Source: Armatimonadota bacterium (GTDB lineage: Bacteria > Sysuimicrobiota > Sysuimicrobiia > Sysuimicrobiales > Sysuimicrobiaceae). Taken from it: 64,000 nucleotides of DNA. The notes beneath the pieces were generated by a model. It did not search any database. It had not been told where the DNA came from and was given only the letters and a program-made list of their open reading frames with translations. Made by a program: the position numbers and the translations under genes. The stretch covers positions 121,861 to 185,860 of the forward strand of contig JAVKGX010000003.1 in the NCBI GenBank assembly GCA_031432545.1. Reading direction: 5' to 3'. This document shows, piece by piece, positions 1 to 10,968 of the stretch (positions are counted from its first letter, which is position 1; each line of letters starts with the position of its first letter).

Positions 1-59
1 CAGTAGGGCTTGGCGTCAGCTTCCGGATTGAAGCGCTTGATGCGGACGATGGTCTCCAT
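1..59 (-). CDS. sdhB: Succinate dehydrogenase iron-sulfur subunit, N-terminal fragment
   Basis: Partial gene: only the first 19 codons are in the window and the rest runs off the left edge. The reading starts with ATG at base 59 and gives METIVRIKRFNPEADAKPY, which matches the N-terminal ferredoxin-like domain of SdhB/FrdB proteins (the 'R-F-N-P-E' beta strand). It begins 5 bp after the sdhA stop codon, so it is the next gene of the same operon and would carry electrons from SdhA to the quinone site in SdhCD. The cysteine motifs lie outside the window, so the call rests on the N-terminus plus position. Confidence 0.75.
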   Translation of the reverse strand, partial: METIVRIKRFNPEADAKPY

Positions 60-64
60 GGGAT

Positions 65-1792
65 CTAGTACTTCCTCTCCTTTGGCTGGTATTTCGTGAT
101 CGTCACCGGTTTGTACCTGAAGTCGTGCTGTCCACGCTCGCGCCGGTAGATGAGCACGTGCTTGAGCCAGTTCTCGTCGTCGCGGTTGGGATGGTCCTCA
201 CGGTAGTGCGCGCCCCGGCTCTCCGTGCGGTGCAGACAACTGGCCACAGTGGCTTCGGCCAGGTCCAGGAGGAACCCCAGCTCGAGGGCCTCGACGAGGT
301 CGGTGTTGAAACGCCGGCCGCGGTCGTCCAGCCGCACCCGCCCGAACCGTTCCTGCAGCGTGAGCACGGTGTCCATCGCATGTTGTAGGCTGGAGGCGGT
401 GCGGAACACCGAAGCGTTCTCCATCATCTCTGCCTGCAGCGCATCCCGGATCGGTGCCGCCGTCTCTCCGTCGGTCCGCGCCCGCAGCGCGTCGATCTGC
501 GCCTGCGCCCGACCTACGGGGTCTTCGCGCACGACCGGGGGATCGGCGCCTTGTATGTAGCGAGCCATGTGGCGGCCTGCTCGGCGTCCGAACACGAGGA
601 TGTCCACCAGCGAGTTCGTGCCCAGCCGGTTGGCGCCGTGCACGGAGACGCACGCGCACTCGCCGGCCGCGTACAGCCCACCCACCGGTATGCCGCGTTC
701 GTCGGCGATGACCTGCGCGTCGTTGTTGGTGGGGATGCCGCCCATGGCGTAGTGCGCCGTCGGCTGGATGGGGACCGGCTCGGTCGCAGGGTCGATCCCC
801 AGGTAGGTGCGCACGAAGTCGGTGATGTCGGGCAGCTTGGTGTCCAGGACCTCCCTGCCCAGGTGCCGGAAGTCCAGGTGCACGTAGTCCGTGCCGTCGA
901 TCCCGCGCCCTTCACGGACCTCCAGGTAGATGCAGCGGGAGATGATGTCGCGCGGTGCCAGCTCCAGCAGCGTCGGCGTGTAGCGCTCCATGAACCGCTC
1001 ACCGTGGCGGTTGATCAGGTACGCGCCCTCGCCGCGCGCCGCCTCCGACAGCAGGATCCCCAGGCGGTAGATCCCCGTCGGGTGAAACTGGAAGAACTCC
1101 ATGTCCATCAGCGGGATGCCGCGCCGCCAGGCGATCGCCACACCGTCGCCGGTCAGTGCGTGGGCGTTGCTCGTGACCTTGTACATCCGCCCGAAGCCAC
1201 CGGTGGCGAGCAACACGGCGCGGGCCCAAAAGACGTGCAGCATCCCCGAGTCGATCTCGTAGGCGACGACGCCAGCGCAGCGCCCGTCCTCGATGAGCAG
1301 GTCAACCATCTGGAATTCGTCGAAGAACGCGACGTCGTTGCGCAGGCACTGCTGGTACAGAGTCTGCAGGATCATGTGACCGGTGCGGTCGGCGGCATGG
1401 CACGCCCGGCGGACGGGGCCCTCACCGAAGTTGCGCGTGTGGCCGCCGAACCGGCGCTGGGCGATCCGACCGTCGGGCGTGCGGTCGAACGGCAGGCCCC
1501 AGTGTTCCAGTTCGTAGACGGTTTCGATGGCCTCCTGGCACATCTGCTCGGCGGCGTCCTGGTCAACCAGGTAGTCGCCGCCCTTGATGGTGTCGAAGGT
1601 GTGCCACTCCGGTTGGTCTTCTTCCAAGTTGCCCAGCGCGGCGCCGATGCCGCCCTGCGCGGCACCGGTGTGCGAGCGTGTCGGATACAACTTGCTGAGG
1701 ACCGCGACCCGGCGGCCCCGCAGTTCCAGTGCCGCGCGCAGCCCGGCTCCCCCGGCGCCGACGATCACCGCGTCGAAGGTGTGCTCAATCAT
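65..1792 (-). CDS. sdhA: Succinate dehydrogenase flavoprotein subunit (complex II type)
   Basis: Oxidises succinate to fumarate on covalently bound FAD and passes electrons to SdhB at the cytoplasmic face of complex II. The 575-aa length is normal for SdhA. The dinucleotide motif VGAGGAGLRA is at residues 11-20, and the FAD-linking histidine is H41 in the segment RSHTGAAQGG. The HPTG active-site segment and the HGANRLGTNSL C-terminal FAD/substrate motif are present. The sequence resembles the SdhA of Gram-positive and Thermus-like bacteria and differs clearly from the second flavoprotein gene in this operon (3644-5386), which is of the E. coli FrdA type. It overlaps the upstream 118-aa gene by 8 bp, so translational coupling is likely. 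Confidence 0.95.
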   Translation of the reverse strand: MIEHTFDAVIVGAGGAGLRAALELRGRRVAVLSKLYPTRSHTGAAQGGIGAALGNLEEDQPEWHTFDTIKGGDYLVDQDAAEQMCQEAIETVYELEHWGLPFDRTPDGRIAQRRFGGHTRNFGEGPVRRACHAADRTGHMILQTLYQQCLRNDVAFFDEFQMVDLLIEDGRCAGVVAYEIDSGMLHVFWARAVLLATGGFGRMYKVTSNAHALTGDGVAIAWRRGIPLMDMEFFQFHPTGIYRLGILLSEAARGEGAYLINRHGERFMERYTPTLLELAPRDIISRCIYLEVREGRGIDGTDYVHLDFRHLGREVLDTKLPDITDFVRTYLGIDPATEPVPIQPTAHYAMGGIPTNNDAQVIADERGIPVGGLYAAGECACVSVHGANRLGTNSLVDILVFGRRAGRHMARYIQGADPPVVREDPVGRAQAQIDALRARTDGETAAPIRDALQAEMMENASVFRTASSLQHAMDTVLTLQERFGRVRLDDRGRRFNTDLVEALELGFLLDLAEATVASCLHRTESRGAHYREDHPNRDDENWLKHVLIYRRERGQHDFRYKPVTITKYQPKERKY

Positions 1793-2141
1793 CGGTGACG
1801 GGCCGCTGCGGTTCGAAGTCGAGATAGCGCAGGACCGTGTGGTCGGTGATGGAGTCGAACCAGCGGCGCCGCAACTCCTCCCCCTCCGCGGACATCAGCC
1901 AGCGCCGGAAGTTCGCGGCCGCCTGCTCGCCCACCCAGAACGCCTCGTTGAGATACTTGGGGCGGCGGACCGGCTTCGGTTGTTCGTAGCTGCCCTCGAA
2001 CCCGTCCACGAACACCCACGTCTTGCGGCCGATGCACCCGAAGCGCCGGGTGACCTCGTCGAGGCGCCCATCCAGCCACTCGACGAAGGATGTCTCGTCG
2101 ACTCCAGGTTTCACGTTGTATGCGTGGATCACACGCAGCAT
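1785..2141 (-). CDS. Conserved-looking small protein of unknown function within the frd/sdh operon
   Basis: A 118-aa soluble protein without signal peptide or membrane segment, starting MLRVIHAYNV. I do not recognise the family. The predicted pattern is strand (residues 2-12), helix (17-35), strand (about 42-47, KTWVFVDG), a Pro/Arg-rich loop, a helix rich in Trp/Arg (75-95) and a final strand (HTVLRYLDFE). This would suit a ferredoxin-like alpha/beta fold such as the dimeric alpha-beta barrel proteins, but that is inference. It lies between frdD and sdhA, 28 bp after frdD, and overlaps sdhA by 8 bp. It is therefore certainly co-transcribed with complex II genes and could be an assembly, redox or ligand-sensing accessory. 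No CxxC or other metal motif is visible. Confidence 0.8.
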   Translation of the reverse strand: MLRVIHAYNVKPGVDETSFVEWLDGRLDEVTRRFGCIGRKTWVFVDGFEGSYEQPKPVRRPKYLNEAFWVGEQAAANFRRWLMSAEGEELRRRWFDSITDHTVLRYLDFEPQRPVTDD

Positions 2142-2169
2142 ACCCGTCCCCTCCTTCTTGCCCGAAGTG

Positions 2170-2514
2170 TCACAGGCGCGCGAGAACGACCGCCGCTGCC
2201 GCGACGATGCCGACGGCCGTACCGTAGCACGCGAACGCCACCGGCACCCAGGAGGCCTTGAGGTGCAATCCCTCGGTGAGCGTGTAGCGGAACCGATGCG
2301 CCCAGTGCAGCATCCACGACGCCACGACCGCGAACACGTAGGCGCGGCCCACCGGATGGGCGACGAGTTCGACGGCCCGCTCGTAGGCGAGCGCGTCGCG
2401 CGTCCAGCCGGCGGCTACGCCGACCCCCGTGAGCAGGACGTGGACTGGCAGCAACAGCGCCGCCACCGTGCCGCCGGCCGCGAACAGGAGCCACCACAGG
2501 GGCTCGCTGCGCAT
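2170..2514 (-). CDS. frdD: Fumarate reductase membrane anchor subunit D
   Basis: A 114-aa membrane anchor of quinol:fumarate reductase. Three hydrophobic segments are visible (about residues 7-32, 55-70 and 88-112). The stretches FAAGGTVAALLLPVHVLLTG, then DALAYERAVEL, then HPVGRAYVF align by eye with E. coli FrdD (GAGGMW..., ALSYERV..., FIGRVFLF), including the spacing. With FrdC it would anchor FrdAB and form the menaquinol site; E. coli-type FrdCD has no haem. The gene follows frdC with only 3 bp between them (frdC stop at 2518, frdD start at 2514). Confidence 0.87.
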   Translation of the reverse strand: MRSEPLWWLLFAAGGTVAALLLPVHVLLTGVGVAAGWTRDALAYERAVELVAHPVGRAYVFAVVASWMLHWAHRFRYTLTEGLHLKASWVPVAFACYGTAVGIVAAAAVVLARL

Positions 2515-2517
2515 CCG

Positions 2518-2901
2518 CTACCGCCCCAGCACGATCCGGGCCACGACCGCCGAGACGATGGCCCACACCGCGTAGTTGGCCCCGACGACCGCCGCGTCCG
2601 GTACCCGGTGCCGTCCCAACCGCACCGTCATCGCCTTGGGGGCGAGCGCGAACCACGTGACCGAGTGGTACAGCGCGGCCGCCAGCCCCAGGGCGTGGAA
2701 GACGGCCATCCCGGGCGCACCCAGAAACGCCAGGTACGCTTCGTAGGCGGTGGGTCCTCGTACCAGCCGGTCGACCAGGATCAGCAGCAAGACCGCGTAC
2801 GTACCGACAAACAGGCTCGTAAGTTCTCGCACGACGAACAGCACGTACGACCGCCGTTCGGTCCACCAGAGGAAGCGCACGGGTCTGCGGTAGCCCGTCA
2901 T
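2518..2901 (-). CDS. frdC: Fumarate reductase membrane anchor subunit C
   Basis: A 127-aa anchor with three transmembrane segments. The stretch [20 protein letters not shown] and the later [19 protein letters not shown] match the E. coli FrdC pattern (WWKKLPFYRFYMLREGTAV; AALLHTKTWFELAPKAANI), including the family-typical 'TWF-LAPKA' turn. The start is the ATG at 2901, which overlaps the frdB stop in a 4-bp ATGA junction. A much longer open frame continues upstream in the same phase but is only antisense-like shadow of frdB and frdA. FrdC and FrdD share the quinol site. Confidence 0.88.
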
Positions 2902-3647
2902 CTTCGCCCCCACGGCACGAGCACGTCGCGGGCCCACTGCAGGGCGCTGTGCAGCTTCAGCCGCTGGATCGCACCCGCAGGATCGACGTGCTTGGGGCAG
3001 ACGGTTGTGCACTCGCCCACCAGCGTGCAGTCCCACACGCCGTCCGGTCCGGCCACGACCTCGCGCCGCGCCTTGCGTCCCTGGTCGCGGGAGTCGAGAT
3101 CGTAGCGCGCGGCCAGCGCCAACGCCGCCGGGCCCAAAAAGCGCGGCTCCAGGGCATACACGGGGCATGCGGAGTAGCAGAGCATGCAGTTGATGCACAT
3201 GCTGAACTGCCGGTAGTCCTCCAGCTGTTCGGGCGTCTGGAGGTGCTCGGAGCTCTCGGGGTCGGGATCCCGCCGGATGAGCCACGGCTTGACGCGTGGG
3301 AGCTTGTCCATGAAGTCGCCGATGTCGACGACCAGATCGCGCGCAATGGGGAAGTTCGCGAGGGGCTCCACCCAGATCGTCCTCGGATGGAACTCGCGCA
3401 AGAACGTGGCGCACGACAGTCGCGGCGTGCGGTCGATCATCATGCCGCAGCTGCCGCACACGCCCATCCGACACGACCAGCGGTAGGTCAGACTGCCGTC
3501 GACCTGGTCCTTGATGTAGTTGAGCGCGTCCAGCACCACCCAGTCCTCGCGGTAGGGCACCTGGTAGGTCTGGAAGTAGGGGCTGGCGTCGCGGCCGGGG
3601 TGGTAGCGGAGGACGCGGAGCTCGGCGGTCGGGCGGGCCATCGTCAA
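2898..3647 (-). CDS. frdB: Fumarate reductase iron-sulfur subunit
   Basis: A 249-aa electron-transfer subunit linking FrdCD quinol oxidation to FrdA. The plant-type [2Fe-2S] ligands are C59, C64, C67 and C79 (motif [10 protein letters not shown] plus a later Cys). The second domain carries C151/C154/C157 then C161 ([12 protein letters not shown]), with C207, C213 and C217 completing the [4Fe-4S] and [3Fe-4S] sites, as in E. coli FrdB. The gene overlaps frdA by 4 bp and frdC by 4 bp, so the frdABC block is tightly coupled. Confidence 0.95.
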
Positions 3648-5386
3648 CCTCCGTAGACGCGCTCGGCCGGCGGCCAGCGCGTGATGACCACGTCCAGGTA
3701 TTCGACCCTCGGCTCCCCGTCGCCGCGATAGGCGAGCGTGTGGCGACAGAAGCGCGCGTCGTCACGCTCGGGATGGTCGGTCCGCTGATGGGAGCCCCGC
3801 GATTCGGTACGCGCGAGCGCCGAGTGCGCCACACACTGTGCGACGTCCAGCATGAAGTCGAGTTCGAGCGCGGCCACCAACTCGGTGTTGAACGCGAGCG
3901 TGCGATCGTCGAGCCGGATGCGGTGGAAGCGCTGGCGCAAATCACGCAGCCGATCGCACGTGGCCCGCAGCGATGCATCGTCCCGGTAGATGCCGCATCC
4001 CGATTCCATGGCATCCTGCATCTCGGTGCGGATGCTGGCAATGCGCTGGTCGCCGCCGTCCTTGCGCAGGAAGTCTCTCTGGATGCGATGCTCCTCGTCC
4101 AGTGCCAGCGCGGTCAGCGGGTTGGGACTTGGGGGTGGGCTCTCCCGAGCATGGGCCGCCGCCGCCCGGCCGGCACGGGCGCCGAACACCAGGCACTCGG
4201 GCAAGGAGTTCGATCCCAACCGGTTCGCGCCGTTGATGCTGACGCAGGCGACTTCACCCGCCGCGTACAGGCCCGGCATCGGTGTGGCCCCATGCTTGTC
4301 CGTGTGAACTCCGCCCATCATGTAGTGGACCACCGGGCGCACAGGGATGGGTTCGTGCACCGGGTCAATCCCGGCGTAGTTGCGCGCAAGCTCGCGGACG
4401 AAGGGCAGCTTCTCGTTGATGCGTCGCTCTCCCAGGTGGCGGATGTCGAGGTGGACGACATCGCCGTAGGGTCCTGCGATCGTGCGGCCCTTGCGCATCT
4501 CGTGTACGAACGCCTGCGACAGCTTGTCGCGCGGGCCGAGCTCCATGGCCCGCAGACGCGGCCACGGCTCGGGCGGGCCGAGGCCGTAGTCCGCTAGGTA
4601 TCGGTAGCCGTCCTTGTTGACGAGGATGCCCCCCTCGCCGCGCGCGGCTTCCGTGATCAGGATGCCCGTGCCCGGCAGACCCGTGGGGTGGTACTGCACG
4701 AACTCCATGTCCTTCAGAGGGACCCCGGCGCGGTAGGCCAGCGCCATGCCGTCCCCCGTCACGATCGCGCCGTTGGTCGTGAACGGGTAGATGCGGCCGG
4801 CGCCGCCGGTGCAGAGGATCACGGCCCGGGCGGCGATGAGGTACAGGCGGCCGGTGGCGAGTTCGATCGCCACCGCTCCCCGGCACCGGCCGTCCTCGAC
4901 GAGCAGGGTGGTGACGAACCACTCGTCGTACCGCCGGAGTGCCTGGTAGCGGAGGCTGGTCTGGAACAGGGTGTGCAGGAGGTGGAAGCCGGTCTTGTCG
5001 GCTGCGAACCAAGTGCGCTCGATCTTCATCCCGCCGAACGGCCGGACGGCGACGTGTCCGTCGGGCTCGCGGCTCCACGGGCATCCCCAGTGCTCCAGCC
5101 GCAGCAACTCCTCTGGGCACTCCCGCACGAATTCCTCGACCGCGTCCTGGTCGGCGAGCCAGTCCGAACCGGTGATCGTGTCCTCGATGTGTGCCTCGAA
5201 GGTGTCGTTGGGCTTGATCACCGCCGCGGCGCCGCCCTCGGCGGAGACCGTGTGGCTGCGCATCGGATAGACCTTCGACAGCAGGGCGACGTCGAGGGCA
5301 GGGTCGGCTTCCGCCGCGGCGATCGCCGCGCGCAGCCCGGCCGCGCCACCCCCGATGATCAGGATATCGTGCTCGAGGATGTCCAT
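3644..5386 (-). CDS. frdA: Fumarate reductase flavoprotein subunit (E. coli FrdA type)
   Basis: A 580-aa flavoprotein that reduces fumarate to succinate (reversible in principle). The start chosen is ATG 5386, giving [20 protein letters not shown]; an upstream in-frame extension has no homology. The covalent-FAD histidine is H45 in [14 protein letters not shown]. Several stretches are nearly identical to E. coli FrdA rather than to Sdh[53 protein letters not shown] and the motif around [10 protein letters not shown]. This shows that two different complex II flavoproteins are encoded in one operon. It follows sdhD by 121 nt, the largest gap in the operon, so an internal promoter is possible, but I found no convincing one. 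Confidence 0.94.
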
Positions 5387-5507
5387 GATCCGTCTCAGTC
5401 GGCCCTCCGCCCTCGGCGATTGGCGGTGCCCGGGACGATCGTAGAGCCTTGGGCTGCGAAAGCCGCCTGCCGTCGACGGCGCTCGCCCGTGCGGTCGCTG
5501 CCGACTC

Positions 5508-5882
5508 CTACGGCCCCGGCTGGAACGTAAACAGCACCAGGGCACCCAACGTGCCGAACACCAGGCCCAGCGTCCCGATCGTGGCGTTCCAAAACAATCG
5601 CCACCTGGGCGATCGGGTGTAGTCCGAGACGATGCCCCGAAGCCCGTTCAGGCCGTGGGTGAGCGCCAGCACCAGGATCAACAGATCGTAGACGCGCCAC
5701 AACGGCGTCGCGAACCGCTGGGCGACGAAGTCGAAGTCGATCGTGTCGGTGCTGTTGAGGATGTGCATGATGTACAGGTGCCCCAGCACCAGTCCGATCA
5801 GCAGCACCGCTGAGACGCGCATGTACAGCCACGACAGCCACTCCCAGCCGTTGGGTCGCGCTCGCGCCACCGGATACGTCAT
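5508..5882 (-). CDS. sdhD: Succinate dehydrogenase membrane anchor subunit D
   Basis: A 124-aa, three-helix anchor of succinate dehydrogenase. The conserved histidines are in the first helix (GHLYIMH) and the typical motif [16 protein letters not shown] is in the second, where the His and the D-Y pair are haem/quinone-site residues in the family. It starts 23 bp after the sdhC stop. In the operon it is separated from its expected catalytic partners sdhA and sdhB by the whole frdABCD block and one small gene. Confidence 0.88.
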
Positions 5883-5904
5883 CGTTTCGCTCCAGGCTCA
5901 CGCC

Positions 5905-6255
5905 TCACTTGAACATCGGGCGCAGCATCAGGAATGCGACCGGGGTCATCAGCGCCGCGTAGGCCGCCGCGCCCACCCAGAACATCCTGCGATACCATCG
6001 GGTTGCCCGCGGGAACAAATCGAGGATCATGATGATGACCCCGTTGCCGGCGTGGTAGACGACGGCGGCCACGAGCAGGAACTCCAGGGGTTTGAACCAC
6101 GGCTGGCGGTACAGCTCGATGGCCTTGTTGTAGGCTTCCGGGCCGTACATCAGCATGGCCGTCTCGACGATGTGCATGAACAGGAACAGCAGGATCGCCA
6201 CACCCGTGATCCGGTGCAGCACCCACGCCAGCATCCCAGGTCCACCTCGGTACAT
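5905..6255 (-). CDS. sdhC: Succinate dehydrogenase cytochrome b556 subunit
   Basis: A 116-aa membrane subunit. The N-terminal signature WVLHRITGVAI with the H-R pair and the following FLFMHI are typical of SdhC quinone-site residues. A second-helix histidine (YHAGNGV) is the expected haem b ligand. There are three membrane helices. ATG 6255 is preceded by a good GGAGG ribosome site 5 nt upstream. It lies 30 bp downstream of the GntR regulator, so the regulator and sdh genes are probably one transcript. Confidence 0.88.
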   Translation of the reverse strand: MYRGGPGMLAWVLHRITGVAILLFLFMHIVETAMLMYGPEAYNKAIELYRQPWFKPLEFLLVAAVVYHAGNGVIIMILDLFPRATRWYRRMFWVGAAAYAALMTPVAFLMLRPMFK

Positions 6256-6285
6256 GACGACCTCCGCCTCGCTCGCCTCTGCCCA

Positions 6286-6993
6286 CTACCGATCGTGGAG
6301 TTGCCTTTCGATGTCCTCGCGCATGTCCTCCATGTGGCGGTGCATCACGCCTCGGGCGAGCGCTTCGTCCCGCATGCGGATCGCTTCTACGATAGCCTGG
6401 TGAAACTCCTGCGCCTTGTGGGGACTGGTGGGGGCACGCCCGGTCGCCTCGCGGCTCTGCAGCCATATCTCGTTGAGCGTGCGCACGATGGAGACGAGCA
6501 CCGGATTCCGGGTCGCCTCCGCGATGAGCCGATGAAACAGCAGATCGGTCTCGAGATCGGCCTTACCCTCAGCCAGCTCCCGTTCGCGGCGGTTCAACAG
6601 GTCCTGCATCTGGTCGAGGTCGTCCTGGGTCGCCTGGTGGACCGCCAGCGCCACGATCTCTTCCTCGACGATCCGTCTCGCCTGAAGAAGATCGAGGAGG
6701 AACTGCCGCTCGGGCAGCAGCGCCCACACTGCGGGATCCACGGGCGCGTGGGCGGACCGGATGAACGTACCGTCTCCCGAGCGGACCTCGACCAGTCCCA
6801 TTGCGTTGAGGACCCGCAACGCCTCACGCACCGAGGCCCGGCTGACGCTGAGGGTCTCGGCGAGTTCCCTCTCCGGGGGGAGGCGGTCGCCGGGTTGCAG
6901 GTGGCGGTCGGCTATCAGTTCCTGAATCTGGCGGACGATGTCCTCGTAGATCCGGCGGTGGCGGACAGGCTGGAAGACGGGCGTCTGCGCCAT
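6286..6993 (-). CDS. FadR/GntR-family transcriptional regulator (FCD domain)
   Basis: A 235-aa DNA-binding regulator. The winged helix spans about residues 12-78, with PGDRLPPERELAETLSVSR and SRASVREALRVL as the recognition helix. The C-terminal all-helical FCD ligand domain spans about residues 95-220, with the metal/ligand positions typical of the subfamily (D...H..., then H...H near MHRHMED). FCD regulators usually bind small carboxylates or acyl-CoA. It is the first gene of the sdh/frd transcript, and a FadR/PdhR-type operator lies 17 bp upstream of its start. Autoregulation and control of the whole respiratory operon by a central-metabolism ligand is a reasonable inference; the ligand is unknown. 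Confidence 0.92.
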   Translation of the reverse strand: MAQTPVFQPVRHRRIYEDIVRQIQELIADRHLQPGDRLPPERELAETLSVSRASVREALRVLNAMGLVEVRSGDGTFIRSAHAPVDPAVWALLPERQFLLDLLQARRIVEEEIVALAVHQATQDDLDQMQDLLNRRERELAEGKADLETDLLFHRLIAEATRNPVLVSIVRTLNEIWLQSREATGRAPTSPHKAQEFHQAIVEAIRMRDEALARGVMHRHMEDMREDIERQLHDR

Positions 6994-10521: not shown

Positions 10522-10554
10522 ACGCCGGCGTCACGGGCGATGGAGGGCCGCGCC

Positions 10555-10968
10555 GTGGAGTGCGTGTTCTGCAAGATCGCAGCCGGTGAGTTGCCGTCGA
10601 CGAAGGTCTACGAAGACGAACGGGTGCTTGCGTTCATGGACATCAACCCGCTCAACGACGGGCATCTGCTCGTCGTCCCCAAGCGGCATGCCTCCACGCT
10701 GTGGGACCTGGAGGTGGAGGAGGCGGAAGCGGTGGCGCGCGCGGCCAAGCGCATCGCCGACGCGATCCGCGTTGCGCTGCAGCCCGACGGCCTGACGGTG
10801 AACCAGGCAAACGGCCGTGCTGCCCACCAGGTCGTCCCTCACTACCATGTTCACCTGATCCCCCGGTGGAGCGGGGACGGCAAGGGGTTCGACTGGGAGC
10901 TGGTACCCGGCGACATGCAGAGGATCCGGGAAGTCGGGGAGAAGATACGACGGGCGATCAACGGCTAG
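10555..10968 (+). CDS. HIT-family nucleotide hydrolase/transferase
   Basis: A 137-aa Hint/HIT-type protein acting on adenosine phosphoramidates or similar nucleotides. The catalytic triad motif HYHVHLIPR (H-x-H-x-H) is near residues 95-103, and the N-terminal CVFCKIAAGELPS is typical. Start: GTG 10555 is preceded by GGAGGG at 10542-10547 (7-nt spacing) and gives the family-typical M-E-C-V-F-C start. ATG 10540, 15 nt earlier, has no ribosome site. The gene sits between sucC and sucD in the same direction, so it is co-expressed with succinyl-CoA synthetase. Confidence 0.92.
   Translation: MECVFCKIAAGELPSTKVYEDERVLAFMDINPLNDGHLLVVPKRHASTLWDLEVEEAEAVARAAKRIADAIRVALQPDGLTVNQANGRAAHQVVPHYHVHLIPRWSGDGKGFDWELVPGDMQRIREVGEKIRRAING

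Follow-up and report, generated by a model that had tools for sequence, protein, structure and literature searches.

The window analysed here is a stretch of 64,000 nucleotides from an Armatimonadota bacterium (family Sysuimicrobiaceae, contig JAVKGX010000003.1). At its start, positions 1–6993 carry a row of minus-strand genes in which a fumarate reductase (FRD) gene block lies between the two halves of a succinate dehydrogenase (SDH) operon, in the order GntR-sdhC-sdhD-[frdA-frdB-frdC-frdD-orf118]-sdhA-sdhB. An earlier note made from the DNA letters had described the order, strand and completeness of this nested row, with an FrdA-type inner and an SdhA-type outer A subunit and two complete pairs of membrane anchors, and all of this was borne out by family and structure matches. 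Absent from that note were the truncation of sdhB by the window edge and the regulator gene directly ahead of sdhC. The features are as follows, in window coordinates.

6286..6993, minus strand: GntR-family regulator with an FCD domain, first in the row (Pfam PF00392, 78 bits; PF07729, 88 bits)
5905..6255, minus strand: sdhC, membrane anchor (PF01127, 60 bits; 6lum_C, 95 bits)
5508..5882, minus strand: sdhD, membrane anchor (PF01127, 46 bits; TIGR02968, 43 bits; 6lum_D, 80 bits)
5387..5507, minus strand: sdhD-frdA gap of 121 bp, probable left-junction zone of an acquired block
3644..5386, minus strand: frdA, fumarate reductase flavoprotein of the E. coli type (TIGR01176, 959 bits; 1kf6_A, 770 bits)
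2898..3641, minus strand: frdB, iron-sulfur subunit (NF009051, 346 bits; 1kf6_B, 275 bits)
2518..2901, minus strand: frdC, heme-less anchor (PF02300, 124 bits; 1kf6_C, 57 bits)
2170..2514, minus strand: frdD, heme-less anchor (PF02313, 84 bits; 1kf6_D, 44 bits)
1785..2141, minus strand: orf118, conserved 118-aa protein (Foldseek matches to barrel proteins; no sequence-family match)
65..1792, minus strand: sdhA, succinate dehydrogenase flavoprotein of the type found in a related family, f5 (TIGR01816, 852 bits; 6lum_A, 770 bits)
1..59, minus strand: start of sdhB, 19 codons inside the window (6lum_B, 332 bits for the whole SdhB)

The sdhB gene crosses the window edge and is complete in the contig (G000:C3, at L003:13222-13920), where it encodes 232 aa. 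About 3.7 kb of inserted genes separate sdhCD from sdhAB. Along the row, the genes overlap or are spaced by 2–30 bp, the 121 bp between sdhD and frdA being the exception; the GntR stop codon lies 30 bp before sdhC, the frdC start overlaps the frdB stop (ATGA), and the last 8 bp of orf118 are shared with the start of sdhA. No terminator-like site was seen in the gaps between the genes of the row, and inspection of the 121-bp sdhD-frdA gap, which is weak evidence, revealed neither a consensus sigma-70 promoter nor a terminator. Judged from the overlaps and the spacing, a single transcript for the whole row is plausible.

By family and structure matches, the inner FrdABCD is a complete heme-less type D fumarate reductase of the E. 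coli type. FrdA and FrdB score above the cut-offs of TIGR01176 (933 bits) and NF009051 (333 bits), and FrdC and FrdD exceed their Pfam cut-offs and fall short of the equivalog cut-offs of NCBIfam. The best solved-structure match of all four subunits is E. coli fumarate reductase 1kf6 (chains A–D). The identification of the inner A subunit as L-aspartate oxidase was ruled out by the comparison of 959 bits for TIGR01176 with 385 for nadB. The motif proximal to the flavin adenine dinucleotide (FAD) reads HTVSAEGG in FrdA and HTGAAQGG in SdhA, so that Glu in FrdA and Gln in SdhA occupy the position equivalent to Gln-A48, a residue that has been used as a mark of an SDH (PMC7447783).

On the same kind of evidence, the outer SdhCDAB is a complete type A diheme, Sdh2-like succinate:menaquinone reductase. 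SdhA is above the TIGR01816 cut-off (727 bits), and the best solved-structure match of all four outer subunits is Mycobacterium smegmatis Sdh2 (6lum). The heme ligands of the latter are His C47, C87, D65 and D107 (PMC7447783), and alignment mapping showed that all four histidines are kept, as H28 and H68 of SdhC and H35 and H76 of SdhD; the outer enzyme was assigned to the type A diheme class reducing menaquinone because of this conservation. FrdA and SdhA of the window are 48% identical. Since the inner and outer subunit sets are each complete and belong to distinct structural types, the row is read as encoding two enzymes rather than one hybrid.

The phylum was sampled with 43 genomes, all of one order, and the nested arrangement was found in four of them, i.e., the window genome and three genomes of another family of the order (f5). 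Both G020, where the locus lies on one 3.15-Mb contig, and G035 have sdhCD-fumC-frdABCD-orf118-sdhAB, and G038 has sdhD-frdABCD-fumC-orf118-sdhAB on a contig that begins inside sdhD. No nested arrangement was found elsewhere among about 465 genomes searched; outside the phylum, there was none among the matches at E ≤ 1e-125 in 386 genomes nor in the 82-genome phylum of G232. The sister genomes in the window's own family (f1, G001–G005) have GntR-sdhC-sdhD-sdhA-sdhB without frd, the f5 genomes G014 and G017 have sdhCD-fumC-sdhAB, and genomes of a third family (f2) have fumC-frdABCD, with GntR ahead where the contig reaches, and no SdhA was found in them. Wherever the contig extends far enough, these loci are divergent from icd-mdh-sucC-sucD. 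The comparison of gene order across relatives, which the earlier note had proposed, thus shows the nested core to be kept in three other genomes, and two complete enzymes with an inserted frd block are likewise supported.

Several further observations concern these loci. In the window, a HIT-family-like gene lies between sucC and sucD (10540–10968), and it occupies the same place in some f1 genomes (G004, G005). The window genome has its own class II fumarase, an intact fumC at L098:1043-2890 (G000:C7), on a different contig from the sdh/frd row, unlike in f5 and f2. The sdhD-frdA gap was considered as a fumC remnant, which was ruled out, there being no similarity beyond 13 bases. In G038, the reading frame of sdhA (G038:C18, L049, 5312-7259) is broken in two close to the 3′ end, which reflects either an assembly frameshift or a damaged gene; if real, G038 may be losing SDH. 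A third form of complex II, with an FrdA-like subunit (50–55%), anchors that resemble Sdh_cyt and a more divergent B subunit, occurs in the same phylum in G009, G014, G010 and G018 (L060, L062, L063, L064).

FRD itself is more widespread than the nested row and is present in several families of the phylum. A true FrdA (at least 770 bits) was found in 15 of 386 genomes. The four nested genomes also have SdhA, and in the other 11 FRD is the only complex II found, with no SdhA at E ≤ 1e-125, a limit at which a very divergent SdhA could be missed. Outside the phylum, frdABCD adjoins sucCD, and sometimes mdh, in two of the 11 and in Rokubacteria-type contigs. The f2 genomes with FRD only (G019, G022, G025, G031 and G034; loci L046, L050 and L053) encode a heme-copper oxidase and have neither MenB above cut-off nor MqnA/D.

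The ancestry of the row is mosaic. By protein identity, the nearest counterparts of the window's icd, mdh, sucCD, GntR, sdhC, sdhD and sdhB are in f1, and GntR also stands ahead of sdhCDAB in the f1 sisters. Identity of sdhB is 80–85% to f1 vs. 71–75% to f5, and that of sdhA is 78–80% to f5 vs. 71–73% to f1. In the SdhA tree, the window falls inside the f5 clade (support 99/99), and grouping with its own family is rejected by the approximately unbiased (AU) test with p = 9e-7; this and the other AU p-values are somewhat optimistic because the f1/f5 grouping had been suggested beforehand by bit scores. In the Icd tree, the window groups with f1 (100/100). At the columns that discriminate the two families, the window has the f1 state throughout sdhD (6 of 6) and predominantly the f5 state in sdhA (22 f5 vs. 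2 f1), and in sdhB nine such columns, from column 149 on, have the f1 state vs. one, column 43, with the f5 state. From aa 106, sdhB groups with f1 (97/98; f5 grouping rejected, p = 0.007), and aa 1–105 lean weakly to f5 (77/86). When sdhC and sdhD are combined with the 3′ part of sdhB, they group with f1 (98/98) and f5 is rejected (p = 0.006). The earlier note had named joint clustering of the two enzymes as an outcome that would speak against it; no such joint clustering of sdhAB with frdAB was seen.

An f5-type sdhA beside native-looking sdhCD and a native-looking 3′ half of sdhB suggests that the block entered by recombination. Probably, frdABCD-orf118-sdhA and the 5′ part of sdhB came from an f5-like donor and recombined into a plain sdhCDAB operon, and the inserted unit probably also replaced the recipient's sdhA and the start of its sdhB. 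The right junction probably lies inside the conserved part of sdhB, where the 3′ half is native (f1) and the 5′ half ranges from ambiguous to f5-like. The FrdABCD sequences from the four nested genomes fall together in a single clade (95/94), suggesting that the nesting arose once. The nested unit would thus go back to the sister family, where frdABCD and orf118 were inserted close to fumC and came to separate sdhCD from sdhAB, and a genome of the window's family would then have acquired the block by homologous recombination, its own sdhA being replaced. The G+C content is uniform across the block; the absence of a contrast rules out recent foreign DNA and indicates that the recombination event was not recent. 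In comparisons of the window with the other nested genomes, pN/pS is 0.24–0.66 for every gene, i.e., all are under purifying selection, indicating that both enzymes have been kept.

The fifth gene of the inserted block, orf118, gave no sequence match in Pfam, NCBIfam or the PDB. Its product is 71–80% identical among the four nested genomes, and outside them none was found in 386 genomes, save one weak match with an internal stop in G034. An AlphaFold (AF2) model of moderate confidence (predicted local distance difference test, pLDDT, 72; predicted template modelling score, pTM, 0.64) has a beta-alpha-beta-beta-alpha-beta fold. The Foldseek matches of this model are dimeric alpha/beta-barrel proteins (muconolactone isomerase-type, OAC, YgiN), with E values of 5e-5 to 1e-3 and a template modelling (TM) score of about 0.6, and Orf118 is thus predicted to be a dimeric alpha/beta-barrel protein of no known family. 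Its translation may be coupled to that of sdhA, and it is probably an accessory factor that would be needed only where both enzymes coexist. However, its restriction to nested genomes reflects in part the common descent of one linked block and is therefore no proof of a role. Another small barrel protein beside an SdhA-like gene was seen in G004, in which a second SdhA-like flavoprotein (G004:C3, L058, 7352-9510; 61% to the window SdhA) is encoded without sdhBCD; this gene is preceded by one resembling a tripartite tricarboxylate transporter gene, and next after it comes a gene for a small barrel protein that, judged by eye, is monooxygenase-like (ABM-type). Second SdhA-like copies also occur in G002, G005 and G006.

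The window genome encodes MenB above cut-off, a genomic indication only, and a heme-copper oxidase subunit I, and MqnA/D are absent from it. On account of these genes, the organism is likely oxygen-respiring and menaquinone-based, and the different quinones that the earlier note ascribes to the two kinds of enzyme find no support in this genome. A phylum of a single order with an aerobic oxidase would agree with Sysuimicrobiota/CSP1-3 (PMC11604079), which is no more than a lead. A heme-less type D FRD is electroneutral and reversible, and with menaquinol it runs downhill towards succinate. The reading that we favour, and that we regard as likely though well short of assured, is that one operon of the tricarboxylic acid (TCA) cycle, mosaic in origin, carries two complete complex II enzymes of different structure with cognate assembly, an aerobic SDH and a reversible FRD. 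Both enzymes would be translated from one mRNA, each assembling with its own partners. During aerobic growth, the diheme SDH would pass electrons from succinate to menaquinone, an uphill reaction that is thought to draw on the proton potential (PMC7447783). When oxygen is short, FRD would reduce fumarate, and it could also back up succinate oxidation. The opposite directions and the oxygen switching, which the earlier note had already put forward, and the co-transcription of both enzymes are inferred in this scheme.

Several points weigh against this reading. Glu-D86, near the distal quinone site, is the proposed proton entry in Sdh2 (PMC7447783), and its equivalent is Gln55 in the window SdhD and variable across the phylum; coupling of the window SDH to the membrane potential is therefore uncertain. 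The residue is not a defining criterion of type A. Trees of sdhC and sdhD alone place the window with f1 at only 87/88 and do not reject a grouping with f5 (p = 0.107). The arrangement is known from four genomes only. Lastly, in the 11 other genomes no complex II besides this FRD was found, and it often lies in or beside TCA gene clusters; the direction of the enzyme is thus not settled by an FrdA-type sequence. In the most probable rival, the nested operon is a transitional stage where FRD, working mainly as the TCA succinate dehydrogenase, makes SDH redundant and replaces it in place, with no switching role needed. It would agree with the f2 cluster fumC-frdABCD, which lies at the equivalent place, divergent from icd-mdh-sucCD, in genomes where no SdhA was found, with the mdh-frdABCD-sucCD and frdABCD-sucCD clusters outside the phylum (five such genomes are without an SdhA match) and with the occurrence within one genus of the nested G038 and of G014 with sdhCD-fumC-sdhAB. 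However, the genes of both enzymes have been under purifying selection over a deep divergence, the block was transferred and retained with both enzymes intact, so that their coexistence looks stable, and orf118 is kept only where both occur. We consider such a replacement in progress, in which SDH is later lost (f2, GntR-fumC-frdABCD) or FRD is lost again (G014), to be unlikely. Also doubtful, and a step less probable, is an elaboration of the two-enzyme scheme in which a membrane-potential-linked diheme SDH and an electroneutral FRD, made from one mRNA and sharing one menaquinone pool, form a succinate/fumarate cycle whose net direction is set by Orf118 as a gate; if true, the gate would choose among succinate oxidation, fumarate respiration and controlled dissipation.

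The remaining alternatives concern how the row came about and what it assembles. The ancestor of the order might already have been nested, the window having kept the arrangement while the f1 sisters lost frd-orf118 and had their sdhA replaced. Several families of the phylum do have FRD, and two of them share the nested core, but the window SdhA branches within the f5 clade, not next to it, and the affiliation switches inside sdhB, as expected of a transferred segment, so that a separate replacement in the sisters would have to end at the same point; this history appears very unlikely. The hybrid complexes raised in the earlier note, e.g., FrdAB on SdhCD, would be permitted by co-expression and by the homology of the A subunits. 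They did not hold up, because each subunit has a full partner set of a distinct structural type: neither enzyme has a missing or degenerate A, B, C or D subunit of its class, and the heme-less FrdCD and diheme SdhCD match different families. Mixing of outer and inner subunits is accordingly rated as highly improbable. The genome consists of 21 contigs and was probably assembled from a metagenome, so an artefact of assembly or binning was also considered. The window lies within a 198-kb contig, no shift in G+C marks the block, and the nested core occurs independently in three other genomes, one of them on a 3.15-Mb contig. Assembly error is ruled out by these three genomes, and an artefact of either kind has next to no likelihood.

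SDH and FRD are textbook opposites and are normally found in separate, oppositely regulated operons. E. coli FrdABCD (type D, 1kf6) shares with the window FRD the A-B-C-D order, the four subunits, the FAD-proximal Glu and the heme-less anchors; however, it is encoded in a separate operon, whereas the window FRD lies inside an sdh operon and has relatives that are often the sole complex II in TCA gene clusters. With M. smegmatis Sdh2 (6lum), the outer enzyme shares the four subunits, the four heme histidines, the FAD-proximal Gln and, in sister genomes, the C-D-A-B order, and it differs in that C-D is split from A-B, Glu-D86 is replaced by Gln and no SdhF gene was identified. The clusters sdhCD-fumC-sdhAB and GntR-fumC-frdABCD of the phylum lie at the same place, divergent from icd-mdh-sucCD, but unlike the nested row they carry one enzyme only and no orf118. 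A further comparison is with M. tuberculosis, a menaquinone organism in which the roles of Sdh1, Sdh2 and Frd overlap (PMC9426501). It likewise combines an Sdh2-type SDH with a four-subunit FRD, although its enzymes are encoded at separate loci (Rv0249c-Rv0247c, Rv3316-Rv3319, Rv1552-Rv1555) and those of the window share one row. By analogy, the one operon could supply both enzymes, or a backup.

No nested frd/sdh operon was found in the literature searched, which omits most subscription journals. The component enzymes are already known, and the nested arrangement is real, conserved and mosaic. As a conserved unit that binds SDH and FRD together and has probably moved as a recombining segment, replacing the recipient's sdhA, the row could serve as a natural experiment on the need for separate regulation of the two enzymes, on the way in which one complex II takes the place of another in a TCA cluster, and on the need for a dedicated small protein, Orf118, in cells where SDH and FRD draw on one quinone pool.

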